This document shows, in pieces, positions 21,729 through 31,168 of a stretch of 32,617 nt of DNA (its first letter is position 1; every line of letters starts with the position of its first letter). The notes under the pieces are model-generated. The model saw nothing but the letters and a program-made list of their open reading frames with translations. It had not been told where the DNA came from and ran no database searches. The DNA lies in contig JAHQWI010000115.1 of the NCBI GenBank assembly GCA_029856085.1, forward strand, positions 1-32,617, read 5' to 3'. Source of the DNA: Promethearchaeia archaeon (GTDB taxonomy: Archaea; Asgardarchaeota; Lokiarchaeia; Sigyniarchaeales; SOKP01). The translations under genes were made by a program, and so were the position numbers.

Positions 21729-22541
21729 TTATTGTGGTTGTAAAATACCTCCAAATGCTAACCATGCCAACAATGATTTAGCAACCAAACTCAATATTAC
21801 GTAAACACGTTCACCGAAAAGATAATCTCTCCAAGGACCGACTGCCTTATATTGAAGCACCATGTTAATTGCAAAAGTGTTAAATAGAATAAGATAAGTA
21901 TAAAATATCCAGTATACAAAGTCAGGTATACCTTCAGCATCTACTCCGTAAAAGTAGCCAAAAATAACAATCCAAGGAATAGCACCAGATATACATCCCA
22001 TTATAAAAGGTTTCCAATTAGTTTTTTCCGTATATTGATTGACTAATTCCATTATATACCCGAACATAATCATTGTAGCATTTAATACAAATATCATAAC
22101 GAGTGCCCAAAAATCCCAGACTCCAAATAATAGTGCAATAAAAGCAATCATGATCGAACTAGAGAAGGCATACTCGTACCAACGATATGGATTGAATCCT
22201 TTCTGCAGATTCTCATTATATCTTTTATTCAATGGATAAGCAATTAATAAATGTGCTAAAGCAGATATTAATAGAAATGATGCTAAAATAGCCCCTACGT
22301 ATGAAAATGTAAATAGTACCTCAGGATTTGGATATATATTAAAATTATCAGGAGGAGGAACTACCTCATAAGTTAAATAAAAGGTATAAATATCTCTAGA
22401 GAATTCTAAAATAAGCCCTATTGTAAGCATTAATATTCCTTGTATTAAATGTAGAATTCCCATATTTCTATTAAATTTCTGCAAATAATCAAAAGATATT
22501 TCTGACTTTGAAATAATTTCTTGTCGTTCTCTGTAATTCAT
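21729..22541 (-). CDS. heliorhodopsin, copy 1
   Basis: A seven-helix retinal protein of the heliorhodopsin family, whose membrane topology is inverted relative to other microbial rhodopsins. Numbering from the alternative TTG at 22550, the retinal-binding lysine is K258 in SLVAKSLLAW and the counter-ion is E126 in PYRWYEYAFSSS. H34 (helix 1) and H100 (helix 2) match the two conserved histidines. Other family blocks are FVLNATMIMFGYIMEL, NWKPFIMGCISGAIPW, NMVLQYKAVGPWRDYLFGE and the Gln-Pro-Gln end. ATG 22541 is in both copies; the TTG three codons upstream corresponds to an ATG in copy 2. Heliorhodopsins are slow-photocycle, non-pumping light sensors or regulators. The neighbours UvdE and PNPOx suit a photodamage context. 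Confidence 0.95.
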   Translation of the reverse strand: MNYRERQEIISKSEISFDYLQKFNRNMGILHLIQGILMLTIGLILEFSRDIYTFYLTYEVVPPPDNFNIYPNPEVLFTFSYVGAILASFLLISALAHLLIAYPLNKRYNENLQKGFNPYRWYEYAFSSSIMIAFIALLFGVWDFWALVMIFVLNATMIMFGYIMELVNQYTEKTNWKPFIMGCISGAIPWIVIFGYFYGVDAEGIPDFVYWIFYTYLILFNTFAINMVLQYKAVGPWRDYLFGERVYVILSLVAKSLLAWLAFGGILQPQ

Positions 22542-22575
22542 TTTAACCAATTTTATTATTATTTTTTAATTTAGA

Positions 22576-22880: not shown

Positions 22881-23254
22881 TTATTAATAATTTAGATGCT
22901 CTTATATTTAAACCTATTAAGACTGAAATTATTACATTCAAAAGATATAGTTTTTGTTAATTCAAAGTATATATCGACACAAATGTGGAAAATTGTCTAT
23001 ACAATATCACAAAACCACCAATTTCCCGAGTATACGGATGAGTTGGAGGAAATGTTAAAGAAAAATTCATCACCATAATCTAATTACTATCTGTTAAATG
23101 GTTTTTGTCGGGATAACCTATAAAGGAAAAGTTCACTTTTTGTTAAAACCGACACCCCCCCTTGAGATTTATTATGATTCAGCAAATATTTGAAATGCTA
23201 ATTTAATTATTTGTTTTTACAAAAAAATATTTCAAACGACAATTTTATGAAAAC
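22849..23254. repeat. near-identical core of the duplication, copy 1
   Basis: These 406 bases match 30025-30429 exactly except for a run of seven versus six C (end of 23160). The flanks on both sides differ at several percent or more. The core includes non-coding sequence. Confidence 0.85.
22896..23078 (+). CDS. hypothetical 60-residue ORF, copy 1
   Basis: Unrecognised. The C-terminal two-thirds (FVNSKYISTQMWKIVY, then EYTDELEEMLKKNSS) looks protein-like, while the Leu/Lys-rich start may not be coding. It is identical at the DNA level to 30072-30254. A GTG-started frame (22876 onward) overlaps its 5' part. It lies between the tiny membrane ORF and the longin-like gene, 168 bp before the latter's ATG. 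Confidence 0.3.
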   Translation: MLLYLNLLRLKLLHSKDIVFVNSKYISTQMWKIVYTISQNHQFPEYTDELEEMLKKNSSP

Positions 23255-23999
23255 CTACAATAGAATTCAAAACCACGGAACTTCTATAAATGGAAAACTA
23301 GACCAAATTGCAAATTTCTCATATAATTTTAACAAAATACCACCAATTATTGGTATGATAATTGCCGATCAATTTGGAAATACAATCATGGTTCTTGAAT
23401 ATGAAATTAAGCCAGAAGGAAATTACGGCTCAATAAAATCGTATTTGTCTGAAGATAATAAGAGTTTATTAGAAATCGATCTAATTTCAATGTATTTTAG
23501 TTCATTCAAAACATTTGCTGGGCAAACTAACATCCAAAACTTATCAAATCTTGAAATTCATGGATCTAACATTAAAGTCCAGTTGTATTTTCTGTTTGAT
23601 AAATATATGGTAATTATTTTTCTAAACTCTAAAGTTGATTTGAACTTAAAAGAAAAGGAACAAATTATTCAGTACTTTAAAGAAATTTTAATTAGGTACG
23701 AATATGAGTTTCAGTATTTTAATGATTCAAATTCCAGAAGGACTCTTAAAATTTTAGAGAATAAAGGAAAGATATGGTTAAAGAAATTAAATAAAACCTA
23801 TATACAGGCATTTCAAAACAACTATTTAAAGAAGCATGAAATTCTTGAGATAGTTATTAATAAAATTTCTCCTACAATTAAAAAAGTATTAGGTGAATAT
23901 TTAGAGAGTATTCCAGAGGATTTTATGAATGATATATCAAGGGAATTAAAGAATAAGATTCACGATAAAATTTGTGAATTCAATTTTAATCTAGATTAA
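23247..23999 (+). CDS. longin/roadblock-like small protein, copy 1
   Basis: ATG 23247 (MKTYNRIQNHG) is chosen over the TTG at 23211. The protein, 250 residues, starts with a short helix (residues 1-30). An alpha/beta domain of about 120 residues follows, with the strand IIGMIIADQFGNTIMVLEY, an extended middle (IDLISMYFSSFKTFAGQT), strand KVQLYFLFDKYMVIIFL and helix KEKEQIIQYFKEILI. This order fits longin- or roadblock-like domains, which are abundant in Asgard genomes and often control small GTPases. The C-terminal 110 residues are helical and Lys-rich. No GTPase lies nearby. The assignment is by pattern only, with no catalytic residues to check. The N-terminal half is almost identical to copy 2; the C-terminal half has diverged. 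Confidence 0.65.
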   Translation: MKTYNRIQNHGTSINGKLDQIANFSYNFNKIPPIIGMIIADQFGNTIMVLEYEIKPEGNYGSIKSYLSEDNKSLLEIDLISMYFSSFKTFAGQTNIQNLSNLEIHGSNIKVQLYFLFDKYMVIIFLNSKVDLNLKEKEQIIQYFKEILIRYEYEFQYFNDSNSRRTLKILENKGKIWLKKLNKTYIQAFQNNYLKKHEILEIVINKISPTIKKVLGEYLESIPEDFMNDISRELKNKIHDKICEFNFNLD

Positions 24000-25626: not shown

Positions 25627-25896
25627 CTATCCACAACAACTATTATTTTGAGGATTTTTAGCAACATAACGCGCATTCCATAAACAACCACAACCTTTTT
25701 GCTCTTGTAAAATGATTGCCATTGTTGGACAATTTCTTTTACATGCAGAACACTCCGTGCAGCGTTCTGGTTCATAGATTTCGAATTTCCCATCTTCGTT
25801 TAGTTTTGGGATTCCAAAAGGGCATATTTCACCACATATACCACATCCTGTACATAAATCAGGAATGATTGAGATTTTTGGAATGACTATTGCCAT
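25627..25896 (-). CDS. hgcB: HgcB, ferredoxin partner of the mercury methylation corrinoid protein
   Basis: HgcB is the small 2[4Fe-4S] ferredoxin that, with HgcA, methylates inorganic mercury; it reduces the corrinoid and is thought to hand over Hg(II). Two cluster motifs are complete: LCTGCGICGEICP and RCTECSACKRNCP. After them come GCGC and a C-terminal vicinal pair (SCCG at the end), the conserved extra cysteines that set HgcB apart from ordinary ferredoxins. The frame extends up to a GTG at 25932 (then MVKITLK); ATG 25896 gives MAIVIPKIS, 89 residues, close to the usual length. No Shine-Dalgarno decides it. It lies 88 bp (52 from the GTG) downstream of hgcA on the same strand, in the usual order. 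Confidence 0.9.
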   Translation of the reverse strand: MAIVIPKISIIPDLCTGCGICGEICPFGIPKLNEDGKFEIYEPERCTECSACKRNCPTMAIILQEQKGCGCLWNARYVAKNPQNNSCCG

Positions 25897-25984
25897 TTTA
25901 ACTGATGATGTTTTTAATGTAATTTTTACCACCTTTTTTTTCTCTTATTAATAATATATTTTATTTTATTTATTTTAACTTAAT

Positions 25985-27664
25985 TTAAAATATGAGGGGG
26001 AAAATGAAACTAATAGCTAGAGTTATAAGACTAATTACCAATAAAATCATATTGATTTTACTGAAAGTAGGGTATTCATCTTGGATCTCTTGAGGGCTTG
26101 TTGCCATAGTATACCCACTATATGACATTGTGGAGAAGAATGCTAACCAAAAATAAAAGCAAGAACTCCAGAATATTAATGGTAATGAACTATGAAAAAG
26201 CCAAGAAATATAACCTAATAGGACAACATTAATAACTCCATAAATTATCCCTTTAGTAATAAATTTTCGTGTGAAATTGGTGATAGGAAATAAAATCATT
26301 ATTGTTGTATTTGTAATAATAACCCAGAGCCAAATTTCGCCTACAATCCACAATTTACTTATCTCTACAACATTTAAAAGAGTAAGACCAAATAAAATTA
26401 AAATTAGTGCAAAACTTGGCCATAAGAAAATTTTTCGTAATAAGAATGTAGTATGTGTAATAGCTGCACGTAAACGATGAAAAGCAGTGAATTTGGCTAG
26501 TTTCATTTTCTCTGGCTTTCGAGCAGGTCGTTCTTTTAGAAATTGAGGTAGGTGTTTCGCCCATACAGGTCCGAATAAAACATTAAATGGAAAATTTGGG
26601 GCTTCACTTTTAATTAAGGGTGATGCTATTCCTCCCGCGGAAAGTTGAGGAAGAATTAATGTTTTCTTATTAGAAACTTTAGTAATATCAGTAGCTTCTA
26701 CTGCTTCAATCAATTGTTTATTTCCAAAATTGTTTCCTCGAGCTGCGCACCAAACGTTTATCCCGTCAGAATCCACACATAACACCCAAGCATCAATCCC
26801 TTTAAGAGCACGCATAACTTTAATATATGTGTATAAATAATTAGCTGTAACAATAATGGGCGAATTTTCATCTGGGGTAGCTGAATGGTAAATTCCTGGT
26901 TCAATTGGAACATGATCTACTTGTCCTGTAAAAATACAGCGATAGATATTCATTTGAGCTCGTAATCCTTTAAATTTTTTAGGGTTAGGTCTATAATATC
27001 CTGGTTCTTCTACCTTTTCATCACTAATCTTTTTTAATTCAATTACTCGAATGGATCCATGGTTCCATTTTTTTTCTGCTACAAATTTAAAACCAATAGG
27101 CTCTAAATATTTGAAAAACCATTTTACTAAAAAAGTACTTTTTAATCGGAGTCTTCTTAATTTTTTTCTGTACCTCCAACGATTTATGTTAAACAAAATT
27201 TTCCAAAGACCTGAAGGAACGAATTCAGCGGCAACTATCATCCTACCGTTTAGTTTCAAGGCTTTCCAAGCGTTTCTTAGAAAATTTTGTTGTTCAAATG
27301 GTCTAAGTTCTGAAAGCATAAATGTACTTACAATTAAATCTTTAGAACTATCATCTGCTGGTAAATCACTGATGGAGCCTATTTGATATAGAAGTTTCGT
27401 ACCTTCTTCAGAAGGATAATTTTTCATAGCAGTATTTATCATTTGTAAGTTTTTATCAATCGCAAGAACTTCATTTCCCTTTAATGCCATTTTTTTAGCA
27501 AGAGTTCCTGTACCACAACCTACTTCTAAGATAATCTGTGGTGCTTTGATCCGTTCTAATATCCAATTATGAACTTTAATATTCGTACCTTTAGTAAGTT
27601 CAGTGAATTTTGATTCATAGGTTTCAGGTTCTAATTCCAATTTCCGCATGTAAACTACGGCCAT
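25985..27664 (-). CDS. hgcA: methyltransferase-HgcA fusion (corrinoid mercury methyltransferase)
   Basis: 559 residues in one uninterrupted frame. Residues 30-210 form a class I SAM methyltransferase: motif I ILEVGCGTG (45-53), an acidic end of strand 2 (LAID), then LPADDSSKDLIVSTFMLSEL. Residues 222-390 are HgcA: PIEPGIYHSATP, PIIVTANYLYTY, the cap-helix motif GINVWCAARGNNFG with C306 as the expected lower Co ligand, LILPQLSAGGIASP and NVLFGPVWAKHLP. Five membrane helices follow (about 411-432, 437-459, 466-488, 493-513, 535-557), as in HgcA. The motif normally reads NVWCAAGKG; here G-K is R-G. AGGTGT (27672-27677) precedes the ATG by 7 bases. Family HgcA is about 330-400 residues with no methyltransferase, so the fusion is unusual. 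Confidence 0.93.
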   Translation of the reverse strand: MAVVYMRKLELEPETYESKFTELTKGTNIKVHNWILERIKAPQIILEVGCGTGTLAKKMALKGNEVLAIDKNLQMINTAMKNYPSEEGTKLLYQIGSISDLPADDSSKDLIVSTFMLSELRPFEQQNFLRNAWKALKLNGRMIVAAEFVPSGLWKILFNINRWRYRKKLRRLRLKSTFLVKWFFKYLEPIGFKFVAEKKWNHGSIRVIELKKISDEKVEEPGYYRPNPKKFKGLRAQMNIYRCIFTGQVDHVPIEPGIYHSATPDENSPIIVTANYLYTYIKVMRALKGIDAWVLCVDSDGINVWCAARGNNFGNKQLIEAVEATDITKVSNKKTLILPQLSAGGIASPLIKSEAPNFPFNVLFGPVWAKHLPQFLKERPARKPEKMKLAKFTAFHRLRAAITHTTFLLRKIFLWPSFALILILFGLTLLNVVEISKLWIVGEIWLWVIITNTTIMILFPITNFTRKFITKGIIYGVINVVLLGYISWLFHSSLPLIFWSSCFYFWLAFFSTMSYSGYTMATSPQEIQDEYPTFSKINMILLVISLITLAISFIFPLIF

Positions 27665-27803: not shown

Positions 27804-27823
27804 AAAGTGAATTCGTTTACTTT
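27804..27823 (-). promoter_or_regulatory. inverted repeat after the CC-peptide gene
   Basis: AAAGTGAA and TTTACTTT (7 of 8 pairs) flank four bases right at the stop codon of the small peptide. It may be an attenuator or partial terminator ahead of hgcA, or chance. Confidence 0.25.
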
Positions 27824-27905
27824 AACAACACCCTTCTTTTGATTGGGATTCCTCATCATCATCTTTTGGTTCTTCAGAACAACATCCTTTATCTTTATCT
27901 CCCAT
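27822..27905 (-). CDS. 27-residue acidic peptide with two vicinal cysteine pairs
   Basis: ATG 27905 to TAA 27822 gives 27 residues: MGDKDKGCCSEE, a Pro-Lys-Asp-Asp-Asp-Glu-Glu middle, and a KEGCC C-terminus. Nothing but the two CC pairs, acidic and lysine residues is present, so it resembles a minimal thiol metal chelator more than a folded protein. It follows a TATA box and operator at the expected distance (about 40 nt leader) and precedes hgcA by 157 bp on the same strand, making it the probable first gene of the transcript. The next gene upstream, the MarR regulator, also carries CC pairs. No published family is known to me. Role in binding Hg(II), As(III) or Cu is an inference. Confidence 0.6.
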   Translation of the reverse strand: MGDKDKGCCSEEPKDDDEESQSKEGCC

Positions 27906-27947: not shown

Positions 27948-27967
27948 ATAGTTAGGATCCTAACTAT
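27948..27967 (-). promoter_or_regulatory. perfect 20-bp palindromic operator of the hgc operon
   Basis: ATAGTTAGGATCCTAACTAT equals its own reverse complement over all 20 bases. It overlaps the end of the TATA box and reaches toward the expected transcription start (about 27944), the classic position for archaeal repression. A further GTTAG half-site lies at 27936-27940. The adjacent MarR-family protein is the likely ligand. Confidence 0.6.
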
Positions 27968-28047: not shown

Positions 28048-28512
28048 TTAATATTTTAGTGAGTTTAATAATTTCTGAAGTAATTCTCCTAACTTTTTCA
28101 TCTCTTCTTGATTAATTTCTGGGCAACAGCCATTAACGATTGATTCTAAAGGAGGTGTTTTATTTTTTAAGTTTTTGCCTTTTTCTGTAAGTTTAACAAG
28201 AAGACTCCTTCTATCAGAGGGGTGTAATTCACGAATGACTAACTTCTTTTTTTCCATTGTATCTACTACCCCTGTAATTGTAGATCTTGAACACACACAT
28301 TTTTCTGCTAATTCTTTAAATTGTTGGCCATCAGATTCCCAAAGTTGACTTAAAATAAAATGCTGAGCTGGTGTAAGGTCTAGTTCTTGAATATTATCTC
28401 GCTGTAATTTTTCATATTTCTTATTTAAGGCATTAATTAAAGTAAACACATCAACAATATTTTCGGGTTTACACGAATTTTCACAACATTCAGGGGTTTC
28501 TTCTTCACTCAT
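28048..28512 (-). CDS. Cys-rich MarR-family transcriptional regulator
   Basis: The 154-residue protein has a winged helix of MarR type: LDLTPAQHFILSQLWE (45-60), the recognition helix CVCSRSTITGVVDTMEKKKLV (72-92) and the wing RELHPSDRRSLLVKLTEKG. It contains seven cysteines, unusual for the family: C9-C10 and C14 in the N-terminal arm (ECCENSC), C72 and C74 at the start of the recognition helix, and C129-C130 (NGCCPE) in the C-terminal dimerisation helix. Such pairs suit thiol or metal sensing, an inference. It is the first gene on the hgc strand; 142 bp with a separate promoter separate it from the CC peptide. It probably represses that promoter and possibly its own. Confidence 0.85.
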   Translation of the reverse strand: MSEEETPECCENSCKPENIVDVFTLINALNKKYEKLQRDNIQELDLTPAQHFILSQLWESDGQQFKELAEKCVCSRSTITGVVDTMEKKKLVIRELHPSDRRSLLVKLTEKGKNLKNKTPPLESIVNGCCPEINQEEMKKLGELLQKLLNSLKY

Positions 28513-28904: not shown

Positions 28905-29729
28905 TTATTGTGGTTGTAAAATACCTCCAAATGCTAGCCATGCCAATAAAGATTTAGCTACCAAACTCAATATTATATAAACTCGTTCACCAAAAAGATA
29001 ATCTCTCCATGGTCCGACTGCTTTATATTGAAGCACCATATTAATTGCAAAAATATTAAATAACACTAGATAAGTATAAAAAATCGCATATACAAAATCG
29101 GGTGGCCCCTCAGTGTTTGAAGTAACCCCATAAAAATAACCAAGAATTACGATCCAAGGAAGTGCCCCAGATATACATCCCATTATAAAAGGTTTCCAAT
29201 TAGTTTTTTCCGTATATTGATTAACTAATTCCATTACATAACCGAACATAATCATTGTAGCATTTAACACAAATATCATAACCAGCGACCAAAAATCCCA
29301 AACACCAAACAGTAATGCAATAAAGGCCATCATGATCGAACTAGATAAGGCATACTCGTACCAGCGATAGGGATTAAATCCTTTTTGCAAATTAGCATTA
29401 TATCTTTTATTTAATGGATAGGCAATCAACAAATGTGCTACAGCAGACATTAATAGAAATGATGCTAAAATAGCTCCTACGTATGAAAATGTAAATAATA
29501 CATCAGGATTGGGATTGATCTCGAATACTCCAGGAGATATTTCTATAAAATTTAAATAAAATGTATAAATATCTCTAGAGAATTCTAAAATAAGCCCTAC
29601 TGTAAGCATTAATATTCCTTGTATTAAATGTAGAATTCCCATATTTCTATTAAATTTCTGCAAATAATCAAAAGATATTTCTGACTTTGAAATAATTTCT
29701 TGTCGTTCTCTGTAATTCATTTTAACCAT
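28905..29729 (-). CDS. heliorhodopsin, copy 2
   Basis: A second full-length heliorhodopsin (274 residues from ATG 29729; a second ATG at 29720 matches copy 1). All key residues are kept: retinal lysine K259 in SLVAKSLLAW, the WYEYALSSS counter-ion Glu, and both conserved histidines in helices 1 and 2. Most differences from copy 1 are conservative; the extracellular loop after helix 1 (IEISPGVFEINPNPD against VVPPPDNFNIYPNPE) and the helix 5-6 loop (GVTSNTEGPPD) differ most. Both genes therefore seem to be functional paralogues rather than a gene and a relic. Loop divergence could alter partners or the retinal pocket environment; this is inference. Confidence 0.95.
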   Translation of the reverse strand: MVKMNYRERQEIISKSEISFDYLQKFNRNMGILHLIQGILMLTVGLILEFSRDIYTFYLNFIEISPGVFEINPNPDVLFTFSYVGAILASFLLMSAVAHLLIAYPLNKRYNANLQKGFNPYRWYEYALSSSIMMAFIALLFGVWDFWSLVMIFVLNATMIMFGYVMELVNQYTEKTNWKPFIMGCISGALPWIVILGYFYGVTSNTEGPPDFVYAIFYTYLVLFNIFAINMVLQYKAVGPWRDYLFGERVYIILSLVAKSLLAWLAFGGILQPQ

Positions 29730-30056: not shown

Positions 30057-30429
30057 TTATTAATAATTTAGATGCTCTTATATTTAAACCTATTAAGACT
30101 GAAATTATTACATTCAAAAGATATAGTTTTTGTTAATTCAAAGTATATATCGACACAAATGTGGAAAATTGTCTATACAATATCACAAAACCACCAATTT
30201 CCCGAGTATACGGATGAGTTGGAGGAAATGTTAAAGAAAAATTCATCACCATAATCTAATTACTATCTGTTAAATGGTTTTTGTCGGGATAACCTATAAA
30301 GGAAAAGTTCACTTTTTGTTAAAACCGACACCCCCCTTGAGATTTATTATGATTCAGCAAATATTTGAAATGCTAATTTAATTATTTGTTTTTACAAAAA
30401 AATATTTCAAACGACAATTTTATGAAAAC
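30025..30429. repeat. near-identical core of the duplication, copy 2
   Basis: Matches 22849-23254 except for one C in a homopolymer. Confidence 0.85.
30072..30254 (+). CDS. hypothetical 60-residue ORF, copy 2
   Basis: DNA-identical to 22896-23078; same doubts about coding. Confidence 0.3.
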   Translation: MLLYLNLLRLKLLHSKDIVFVNSKYISTQMWKIVYTISQNHQFPEYTDELEEMLKKNSSP

Positions 30430-31168
30430 TTACAATAGAATTCAAAACCACGGAACTTCTATAAATGGAAAACTAGACCAAATTGCAAATTTCTCTTATA
30501 ATTTTAACAAAATACCACCAATTATTGGTATGATAATTGCCGATCAATTTGGAAATACAATCATGGTTCTTGAATATGAAAATAAGCCTGAAGAAAATTA
30601 CGGCTCAATTAAATCATATTTGTCTGAAGATAATAAGAGTTTATTAGAAATCGATCTAATTTCAATGTATTTTAGTTCATTCAAAACATTTGCTGGGCAA
30701 ACTAACATCCAAAACTTATCAAATCTTGAAATTCATGGATCTAACATTAAAGTCCAGTTGTATTTTCTGTTTGATAAATATATGATAATTGTTTTTCTTA
30801 ACTCGAAGGCGGATTTAAATTCAAAAGATAAGGAACAAATAATTCATTATTTTAGTGAACTCTTAGTAAAGTACGAATATGCGTTTCAACATTTTAATGA
30901 TTCGAATTCCAGAAGGATCCTAACGACTTTAGAGAATAAAGGAAAAGTATGGTTAAAGAAGTTAAATAAAACCTATTTGCAGGCATTTCAAGGCAATTAT
31001 TTAAAGAAACATGAAGTTCTTGAATTAATAATAAATAAAATCTCCCCTACAATTAAAGAAGTATTAGGTGAATATTTAGATGGTATTCCAGAGGAGGTTA
31101 TTAGTGATATGTCTAAGGAATTAAAGAATAAGATTCATGATAAAATTTGCGAATTCAAAATATGGTAG
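30422..31168 (+). CDS. longin/roadblock-like small protein, copy 2
   Basis: 248 residues from ATG 30422, paralogue of the protein at 23247-23999. About the first 130 residues (the longin-like alpha/beta domain) differ at very few positions, while the helical C-terminal part differs often (for example SKDKEQIIHYFSELLVKYEY and DGIPEEVISDMSKELK). The last residues (EFKIW) come from sequence beyond the repeat border, so the C-terminus differs from copy 1 (EFNFNLD). The frame is intact, consistent with a working gene. Domain assignment is by pattern, as for copy 1. Confidence 0.65.
   Translation: MKTYNRIQNHGTSINGKLDQIANFSYNFNKIPPIIGMIIADQFGNTIMVLEYENKPEENYGSIKSYLSEDNKSLLEIDLISMYFSSFKTFAGQTNIQNLSNLEIHGSNIKVQLYFLFDKYMIIVFLNSKADLNSKDKEQIIHYFSELLVKYEYAFQHFNDSNSRRILTTLENKGKVWLKKLNKTYLQAFQGNYLKKHEVLELIINKISPTIKEVLGEYLDGIPEEVISDMSKELKNKIHDKICEFKIW

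Follow-up and report, generated by a model that had tools for sequence, protein, structure and literature searches.

HgcA (NF040863) combines a corrinoid domain, which carries a cysteine in its cap helix, with a five-helix membrane domain, and is partnered by HgcB. The available text of PMC11588087 (2024) reports residue C93 of HgcA and residues C73, C94 and C95 of HgcB as crucial for methylation, and describes SAM methylating Co(I)-HgcA in purified canonical HgcAB, with release of SAH and without an added methyltransferase. Fusions of HgcA to HgcB, known as deep relatives (PMC7573106, in its accessible portion), form the HgcAB-like group (NF043039; Thermococci and others), in which the HgcB part is without the terminal cysteine pair. 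NCBI has also named a methyltransferase for its pairing with corrinoid proteins, CpaM (NF043040, "corrinoid protein-associated methyltransferase", a hypothetical equivalog). The CdhE/CFeSP large subunit has no membrane domain and receives its methyl group from a folate or pterin methyltransferase. Asgard HgcA is likewise in print: in 2023, Zhang et al. (ISME J) reportedly proposed it as a potential mercury methylator and are said to have described Lokiarchaeota hgcAB with conserved residues; it is very probably the same gene family, from the same archaea, as the protein described below.

Here we analysed a 32,617-nucleotide stretch of DNA from a Promethearchaeia archaeon (the window), which corresponds to contig C115 of a Lokiarchaeal draft genome of 3.26 Mb (214 contigs, 79.7% complete) and in which the first-pass annotation had seen HgcA fused in frame to a SAM-dependent methyltransferase. 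While the CpaM-corrinoid pairing and the Asgard HgcA were already known, the present analysis adds the one-chain form and its distribution, shows how nearly exclusive the pairing is and how canonical HgcA differs, and places one branch in a setting of arsenic genes. Among the matches listed in the open-licence PMC literature, we found no paper that describes CpaM and HgcA in one chain.

Architecture of the fusion protein

The fusion gene (25985..27664, minus strand; 559 aa) runs as one open frame from the ATG at 27664 to the stop codon at 25987-25985, whereas the plus strand of the same interval is full of stops. The limits and the uninterrupted 559-codon frame of the first-pass annotation are correct, the strand being minus, and the motifs it quoted are all present in the translated frame: ILEVGCGTG (SAM motif I by sequence, residues 45-53, 27506..27532, minus strand), NVWCAA with Cys306, LILPQL and GPVWAKHLP. 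Residues 1-213 (27026..27664, minus strand) form a CpaM-like class I SAM methyltransferase half, and residues 223-559 (25988..26998, minus strand) an HgcA-type half with corrinoid and membrane domains, as recognised by NCBIfam and Foldseek. In Pfam, the protein matches Methyltransf_25 at residues 45-140 or 45-144 (4.9e-15) and the CdhD corrinoid domain at residues 238-343 (2.1e-13). In NCBIfam, the N-terminal half covers positions 2-215 of the 216 of CpaM NF043040 with 129.3 bits (below the cut-off of 180), while the C-terminal half scores best with HgcAB-like NF043039 (169.3 bits, below the cut-off of 285) and reaches 164.8 bits with HgcA NF040863 (below the cut-off of 275). Despite these sub-cut-off scores, the kinship of both halves to the CpaM and HgcA/HgcAB-like families is clear at the level of sequence. 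Since the N-terminal half is CpaM-like, the partnership of methyltransferase and corrinoid protein is one that NCBI has already named; the window protein differs from the named family in its lower score and in carrying CpaM in one chain with HgcA.

The five membrane helices claimed in the first-pass annotation are present in the predicted structure (pLDDT 91.7, pTM 0.88), whose secondary structure has five helices of 24-36 residues each within residues 394-558 (25991..26485, minus strand), whereas a hydropathy scan at a threshold of 1.6 sees four clear membrane segments. In Foldseek, the best match of the HgcA half is the HgcAB model 9a0b_A, and its corrinoid domain is homologous to the C-terminal domain of the CdhE/CFeSP large subunit (PDB 2h9a, E 8.6e-8), which differs in having no cap cysteine (PMC7305189, in the part available). 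The structural matches from VIA-align all fall on the methyltransferase domain and are uninformative for the HgcA half. Residues 154-171 form a basic helix in both the sequence and the predicted model. The cap-helix motif reads NVWCAARG (26735..26758, minus strand; Cys306 codon at 26749-26747), whereas most canonical loci have NVWCAAGK. The earlier description of a complete HgcA holds for the architecture and goes too far for the family, as the 165 bits of this half fall short of the NCBI HgcA cut-off of 275 and the protein lies outside the canonical clade.

The HgcB-like ferredoxin is a separate gene (25627..25932, minus strand; listed with a GTG start, an ATG at 25896 being a possible alternative) with two 4Fe-4S motifs, a GCGC and a terminal CC(G), and scores 53.6 bits against NF040864, below the cut-off of 99. 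The separate gene and its GCGC and CC tail set the window fusion apart from the HgcAB-like fusions.

Spread of the fusion and constancy of the pairing

Contig C48 of the same genome bears another fused copy, 71% identical and accompanied by a separate HgcB, and the closest named relative returned, by a search that may omit the window's own record, is a Lokiarchaeota MAG (L065) with 83% identity across the whole fusion. We further searched 227 genomes of the phylum with CpaM and HgcA models and paired the best listed places (CpaM down to about 113 bits, HgcA to about 134; CdhE-like rows below 134 bits dropped), which gave 106 HgcA-family places in 91 genomes. CpaM is found in the same open frame at 64 of these places, in 61 genomes (a few frames are short, apparently cut at contig ends), and within 1.2 kb at 39, making 103 of 106 with CpaM fused or near. 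The exceptions are G182, where the HgcA frame reaches the end of its locus and CpaM sits on another contig, G081, with an HgcA fragment with stops near the contig start, and G052, where CpaM is 2.6 kb from HgcA. Seen from the other side, HgcA is near CpaM at 103 of 110 CpaM places, the other 7, some of them near contig ends, having no HgcA within 1.2 kb. A close partnership between CpaM and the HgcA family across the phylum is supported. Fifteen genomes of the phylum hold at least two HgcA-family places; at the time of PMC8261052, as its available text has it, no genome was known with more than one HgcAB. In the profile search, the NCBI HgcA cut-off was reached in none of the 227 genomes.

Beyond the phylum census, the best 80 of at least 584 relatives include named genomes with fusions from Loki-, Thor-, Heimdall- and Hodarchaea, Chloroflexota, Poribacteria and Zixibacteria. 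Triple fusions (L021, L028, L029, L093 and L096) were found in a Desulfobacteraceae MAG, a Bacteroidales MAG and three genomes of the phylum; they share with the window fusion the N-terminal CpaM followed by HgcA, but carry HgcB in the same chain and group with the HgcAB-like proteins. In the HgcA-HgcB fusions analysed, CpaM adjoins in all 25 rows, one of them from Wallbacteria. The arrangements seen thus comprise three separate genes, CpaM beside HgcA-HgcB, CpaM-HgcA, and CpaM-HgcA-HgcB.

The window does come from a fragmented draft assembly, which would be the ground for regarding the fusion as an artefact of assembly or annotation; against this stand the second copy in the genome, the 64 one-frame places in 61 genomes and the bacterial fusions in Chloroflexota, Poribacteria and Zixibacteria, and we put the chance of an artefact at next to nil. 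The assembly join, which the first-pass annotation had named as what would undo its reading, is rejected on the second fused copy and the independent fusions in 61 of 227 genomes. The methyltransferase is really fused in frame to an HgcA-type protein, and the search for other proteins with an N-terminal methyltransferase, proposed together with their mapping on the HgcA tree, returned those 61 genomes and placed the window protein among the Asgard fusions.

Canonical HgcA and the two trees

For comparison we used 46 canonical loci (L097, L099, L100, L102-L144); two further loci, L050 and L150, at first labelled canonical, are edge cases placed elsewhere in the trees. Unlike the window fusion, none of the 46 has CpaM within the stretch covered (up to 5 kb on each side; at least 1 kb upstream in 39), the sole methyltransferase matches of a custom CpaM model there being of 32 and 44 bits. 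At the level of genomes (36 searched in all), the CpaM cut-off was exceeded in 5 of 5 fusion or triple-fusion controls and in 0 of 31 canonical genomes (top score 90 bits, covering part of the model); this cut-off alone is not the whole test, as the window's own CpaM half is also below it, while the poribacterial, the zixibacterial and one tested chloroflexal fusion exceed its 180 bits. CpaM appears to be dispensable for canonical HgcA.

We built three maximum-likelihood trees of the HgcA half, of 92, 91 and 81 rows. Thinning left 28 of the 46 canonical loci, and 22 in the last tree; each time they form a single fully supported clade (100/100 for the 28 rows) that excludes the window protein, which is placed among fusions from Asgard archaea. 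Nearest to canonical HgcA are the fusions of Poribacteria and Zixibacteria (97/88; 98/71 with eight CdhE outgroup rows). Placing the root on the stem of the canonical clade could not be rejected (p-AU 0.588), its likelihood being slightly higher than that of the best CdhE-rooted tree. An ancestral association with CpaM, later lost in the canonical branch, is therefore not upheld, and canonical HgcA may either have lost CpaM or never have had it.

In the tree of the methyltransferase half, built from 62 CpaMs and 9 generic methyltransferase rows (one outgroup row, L171, is a wrong 33-residue fragment), the CpaMs fall on one side of the generic methyltransferases (72/94) and the small clades match those of the HgcA tree. 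The deep branches disagree: in the CpaM tree, Chloroflexota rows group with the three-gene class (83/76), whereas the HgcA tree puts them with HgcAB-like proteins (96/94). Together the trees fit, without proving, one old partnership followed by repeated fusion or splitting; the deep disagreement counts against the methyl relay discussed below.

Conserved residues and HgcB cysteines

Across all 62 CpaMs, whether fused, adjacent or in triple fusions, M6, E10, Y16, G49, G51, M75 and E119 are invariant; G53 is kept in 61, and D70, D109, S118 and E147 in 60 or 61. The only recurrent cysteine is Cys50 of motif I (46 of 62). In the HgcA half, the cap cysteine is kept in 54 of 55 fusion rows, the remaining row being cut short in its locus.

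The HgcBs beside fusions have a GxGC and a cysteine pair near the end in 42 of 43 cases (the exception is Chloroflexi L091), and the cysteine of the GxGC would, by alignment, be the counterpart of C73. No HgcB was found within reach in 12 fusion rows, eight of them from Chloroflexota, and none with a cysteine tail was found close by in 10 of the 11 bacterial fusion rows; Poribacteria have a more distant HgcB with GPGC and without the tail. In the predicted structure of the triple fusion L093, the HgcB part (residues 511-587) has a pLDDT below 50 and is uninformative on docking.

CpaM, HgcA and HgcB occur as separate genes in L145-L148 (family f28) and L149-L154 (family f15). In this three-gene class, neither the GxGC nor the cysteine pair is present in any of 8 HgcBs, which suggests that they may serve another acceptor. 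Canonical HgcBs have both features in 33 of 40 cases; the other seven (L099, L107, L109, L113, L114, L119 and L124) have a UGA codon just after GVG, followed by an in-frame, cysteine-containing continuation, and are probably selenocysteine HgcBs. A selenocysteine HgcB (GVGU), matching UGA after GVG, is listed in the available part of PMC13188914.

Gene neighbourhoods

A gene for an ACR3-type arsenite exporter is found near 15 of 44 distinct Asgard fusion rows, of which just 16 extend at least 1 kb upstream: in 13 cases it is directly upstream of the fusion, in one (L076) separated from it by ArsM alone, and in one (L069) 3.6 kb away. The loci that bear it are mostly close kin. ArsR-type genes are found in 15 of the 44 rows and ArsC-type genes in 3. 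In NCBIfam, one of seven ACR3 proteins is above the 282.8-bit cut-off and six score 259-282. An example is a Lokiarchaeota MAG (L076:2970-6996) in which acr3, arsM, the CpaM-HgcA fusion and hgcB follow each other in one gene run, the ArsM scoring 347 bits (above the cut-off of 263). The same queries find ACR3 at 3 of 46 canonical loci, once directly upstream of hgcA (L115), and at none of 11 bacterial fusions, 25 HgcAB-like loci (flanks mostly only about 1.5 kb), 9 three-gene loci and 5 triple-fusion loci; at the window's own locus, we found no ars genes. Ars genes close to hgcAB, and control by ArsR, are on record (PMC7438021, PMC10349881). For the system taken as a whole, the neighbouring genes of one branch point to arsenic.

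In the window, the gene order is a MarR-family regulator (28048..28512, minus strand; Pfam MarR 3.2e-16) with N-terminal cysteines (ECCENSCK), a 27-residue Cys-Cys peptide (27822..27905, minus strand), the fusion and HgcB. Both the regulator and a similar peptide are also found in L065, L075, L157 and L163, giving five loci with the window; the peptide has no family match in NCBIfam and is possibly a thiol metal carrier. A 20-bp perfect palindrome, ATAGTTAGGATCCTAACTAT (27948..27967), which overlaps a TATA-like element, is a candidate MarR operator, and the GTTAGGNNCCTAAC palindrome occurs in 5 of 5 loci with the peptide, again lying over a TATA-like element, some 60 bases upstream of the peptide. 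Neither peptide nor palindrome was seen in L164, from the same genus, or in the second copy (L155). Regulator, palindrome and peptide plausibly constitute a response to thiophilic metals under presumed MarR control.

Judged by eye, the hgc region lies between two pairs of highly similar genes, spaced about 7 kb from each other (21729-22550 and 28905-29729, minus strand; 23211-23999 and 30386-31168, plus strand), which gives the impression of a segmental duplication around the region.

Discussion

The analysis establishes how the fusion is built, that it is widely conserved and that the two partners almost always occur together, as well as the conservation of the SAM-site residues and the corrinoid cysteine, and the cysteines of HgcB. 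Our best reading, which we hold at slightly better than even confidence, is a relay from SAM to cobalt through CpaM: the CpaM-like N-terminal domain would pass the methyl group of SAM to the Co(I) corrinoid in the HgcA half, the neighbouring HgcB ferredoxin would provide the electrons for making Co(I), and the methyl-cobalt, "Cys-on" through Cys306, would deliver its methyl group to a soft metal or metalloid held on the HgcB thiols (GxGC and terminal cysteine pair). This is the simplest reading because of the fusion itself, the conserved SAM site and the close partnership of methyltransferase and HgcA family; the direction of methyl transfer is what we infer. We know of no class I SAM methyltransferase that acts on cobalt, and the 7 of 110 CpaM places without HgcA within 1.2 kb also count against the relay. 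So does canonical HgcAB, which takes the methyl group of SAM without CpaM (PMC11588087, in its available text), so that CpaM need not be the part that methylates cobalt. Of the built-in SAM-to-corrinoid relay put forward in the first-pass annotation, the fusion, the SAM site and the partnership stand, with the relay itself as the simplest interpretation and "HgcA" as too strong a label. Likewise, the fusion offers the claimed genetic support for SAM as donor only as corroboration, because SAM was shown to charge purified canonical HgcAB without such a domain.

As to the acceptor, we consider arsenic at least as likely as mercury in the Lokiarchaeal branch; mercury as the natural acceptor has no support over arsenic. 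Alternatively, CpaM could act on the product instead of on cobalt: HgcA would methylate arsenic or a different metalloid once, and CpaM would use SAM to attach a further methyl group. The ACR3, ArsC, ArsR and ArsM neighbours of one branch and the methyltransferase fold, common to many small-molecule methyltransferases, would suit such a two-step methylase, yet CpaM has no conserved cysteine other than Cys50 (46 of 62) and thus no ArsM-type metalloid site, it also accompanies HgcA-family members in which HgcB has no thiol tail, as at all 8 three-gene loci that include HgcB, the flanks covered at 9 three-gene and 25 HgcAB-like loci show no ACR3, ArsM, ArsR or ArsC match, and L076 keeps a separate ArsM, all of which makes it unlikely. 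ArsM needs several arsenic-binding cysteines. With these absent and low ArsM scores, we reject CpaM as an ArsM, and the alternative raised in the first-pass annotation, that the methyltransferase domain itself methylates arsenite, is weakened by the same absence and by the separate true ArsM of L076.

That the protein is a true mercury methylator, an HgcA with a built-in methyl source producing methylmercury in Lokiarchaea, accords with the proposal attributed to Zhang et al. above and with the counterparts of HgcA C93 and HgcB C73, C94 and C95, reported as crucial in the available text of PMC11588087. Its HgcA and HgcB scores are nevertheless below the NCBI cut-offs, it lies outside the 28-row canonical clade (100/100), none of the 227 genomes of the phylum reaches the HgcA cut-off, and the fused HgcAB of Pyrococcus furiosus is described as non-methylating in the accessible portions of PMC5038027 and PMC8261052; we therefore regard this as improbable. 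Still less probable, in our view, is a housekeeping or tethering role of CpaM beside HgcA-like proteins, in which it would modify the corrinoid ring, a lipid or a residue of some protein. A fusion indicates a common function and not the reaction, and phosphatidylethanolamine methyltransferase is among the close folds, in addition to the basic helix at residues 154-171, but a methyltransferase paired almost exclusively with a corrinoid protein that carries methyl groups is unlikely to serve an unrelated methylation.

The SAM-to-cobalt relay can be carried further, tentatively and with a rather low probability. The HgcA superfamily might have been founded on a class I SAM methyltransferase that charges cobalt directly, with the methylation of a thiophilic metalloid (arsenic), or defence, as its original role; canonical mercury methylators would then be the one branch that dispensed with the methyltransferase and takes SAM itself, mercury being a side substrate.

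The source of the methyl group on HgcA-type proteins and the purpose of these proteins have been addressed only recently, if at all. The CpaM-HgcA fusion is real, widespread and functionally suggestive, while mercury methylation by the window protein is putative, because its HgcA half lies outside the canonical clade and below the NCBI cut-off, although the HgcB cysteine tail is kept. This bears on surveys that take Asgard HgcA as mercury-methylation potential: since the protein is outside the canonical clade and of a different make-up, its substrate needs testing. The surroundings of ACR3, ArsM and ArsR in part of the Lokiarchaeota provide a genetic lead to a metalloid substrate, and the one-chain CpaM-HgcA, together with its separate-gene and triple-fusion relatives, offers constructs for direct tests of methyl transfer from SAM to cobalt.
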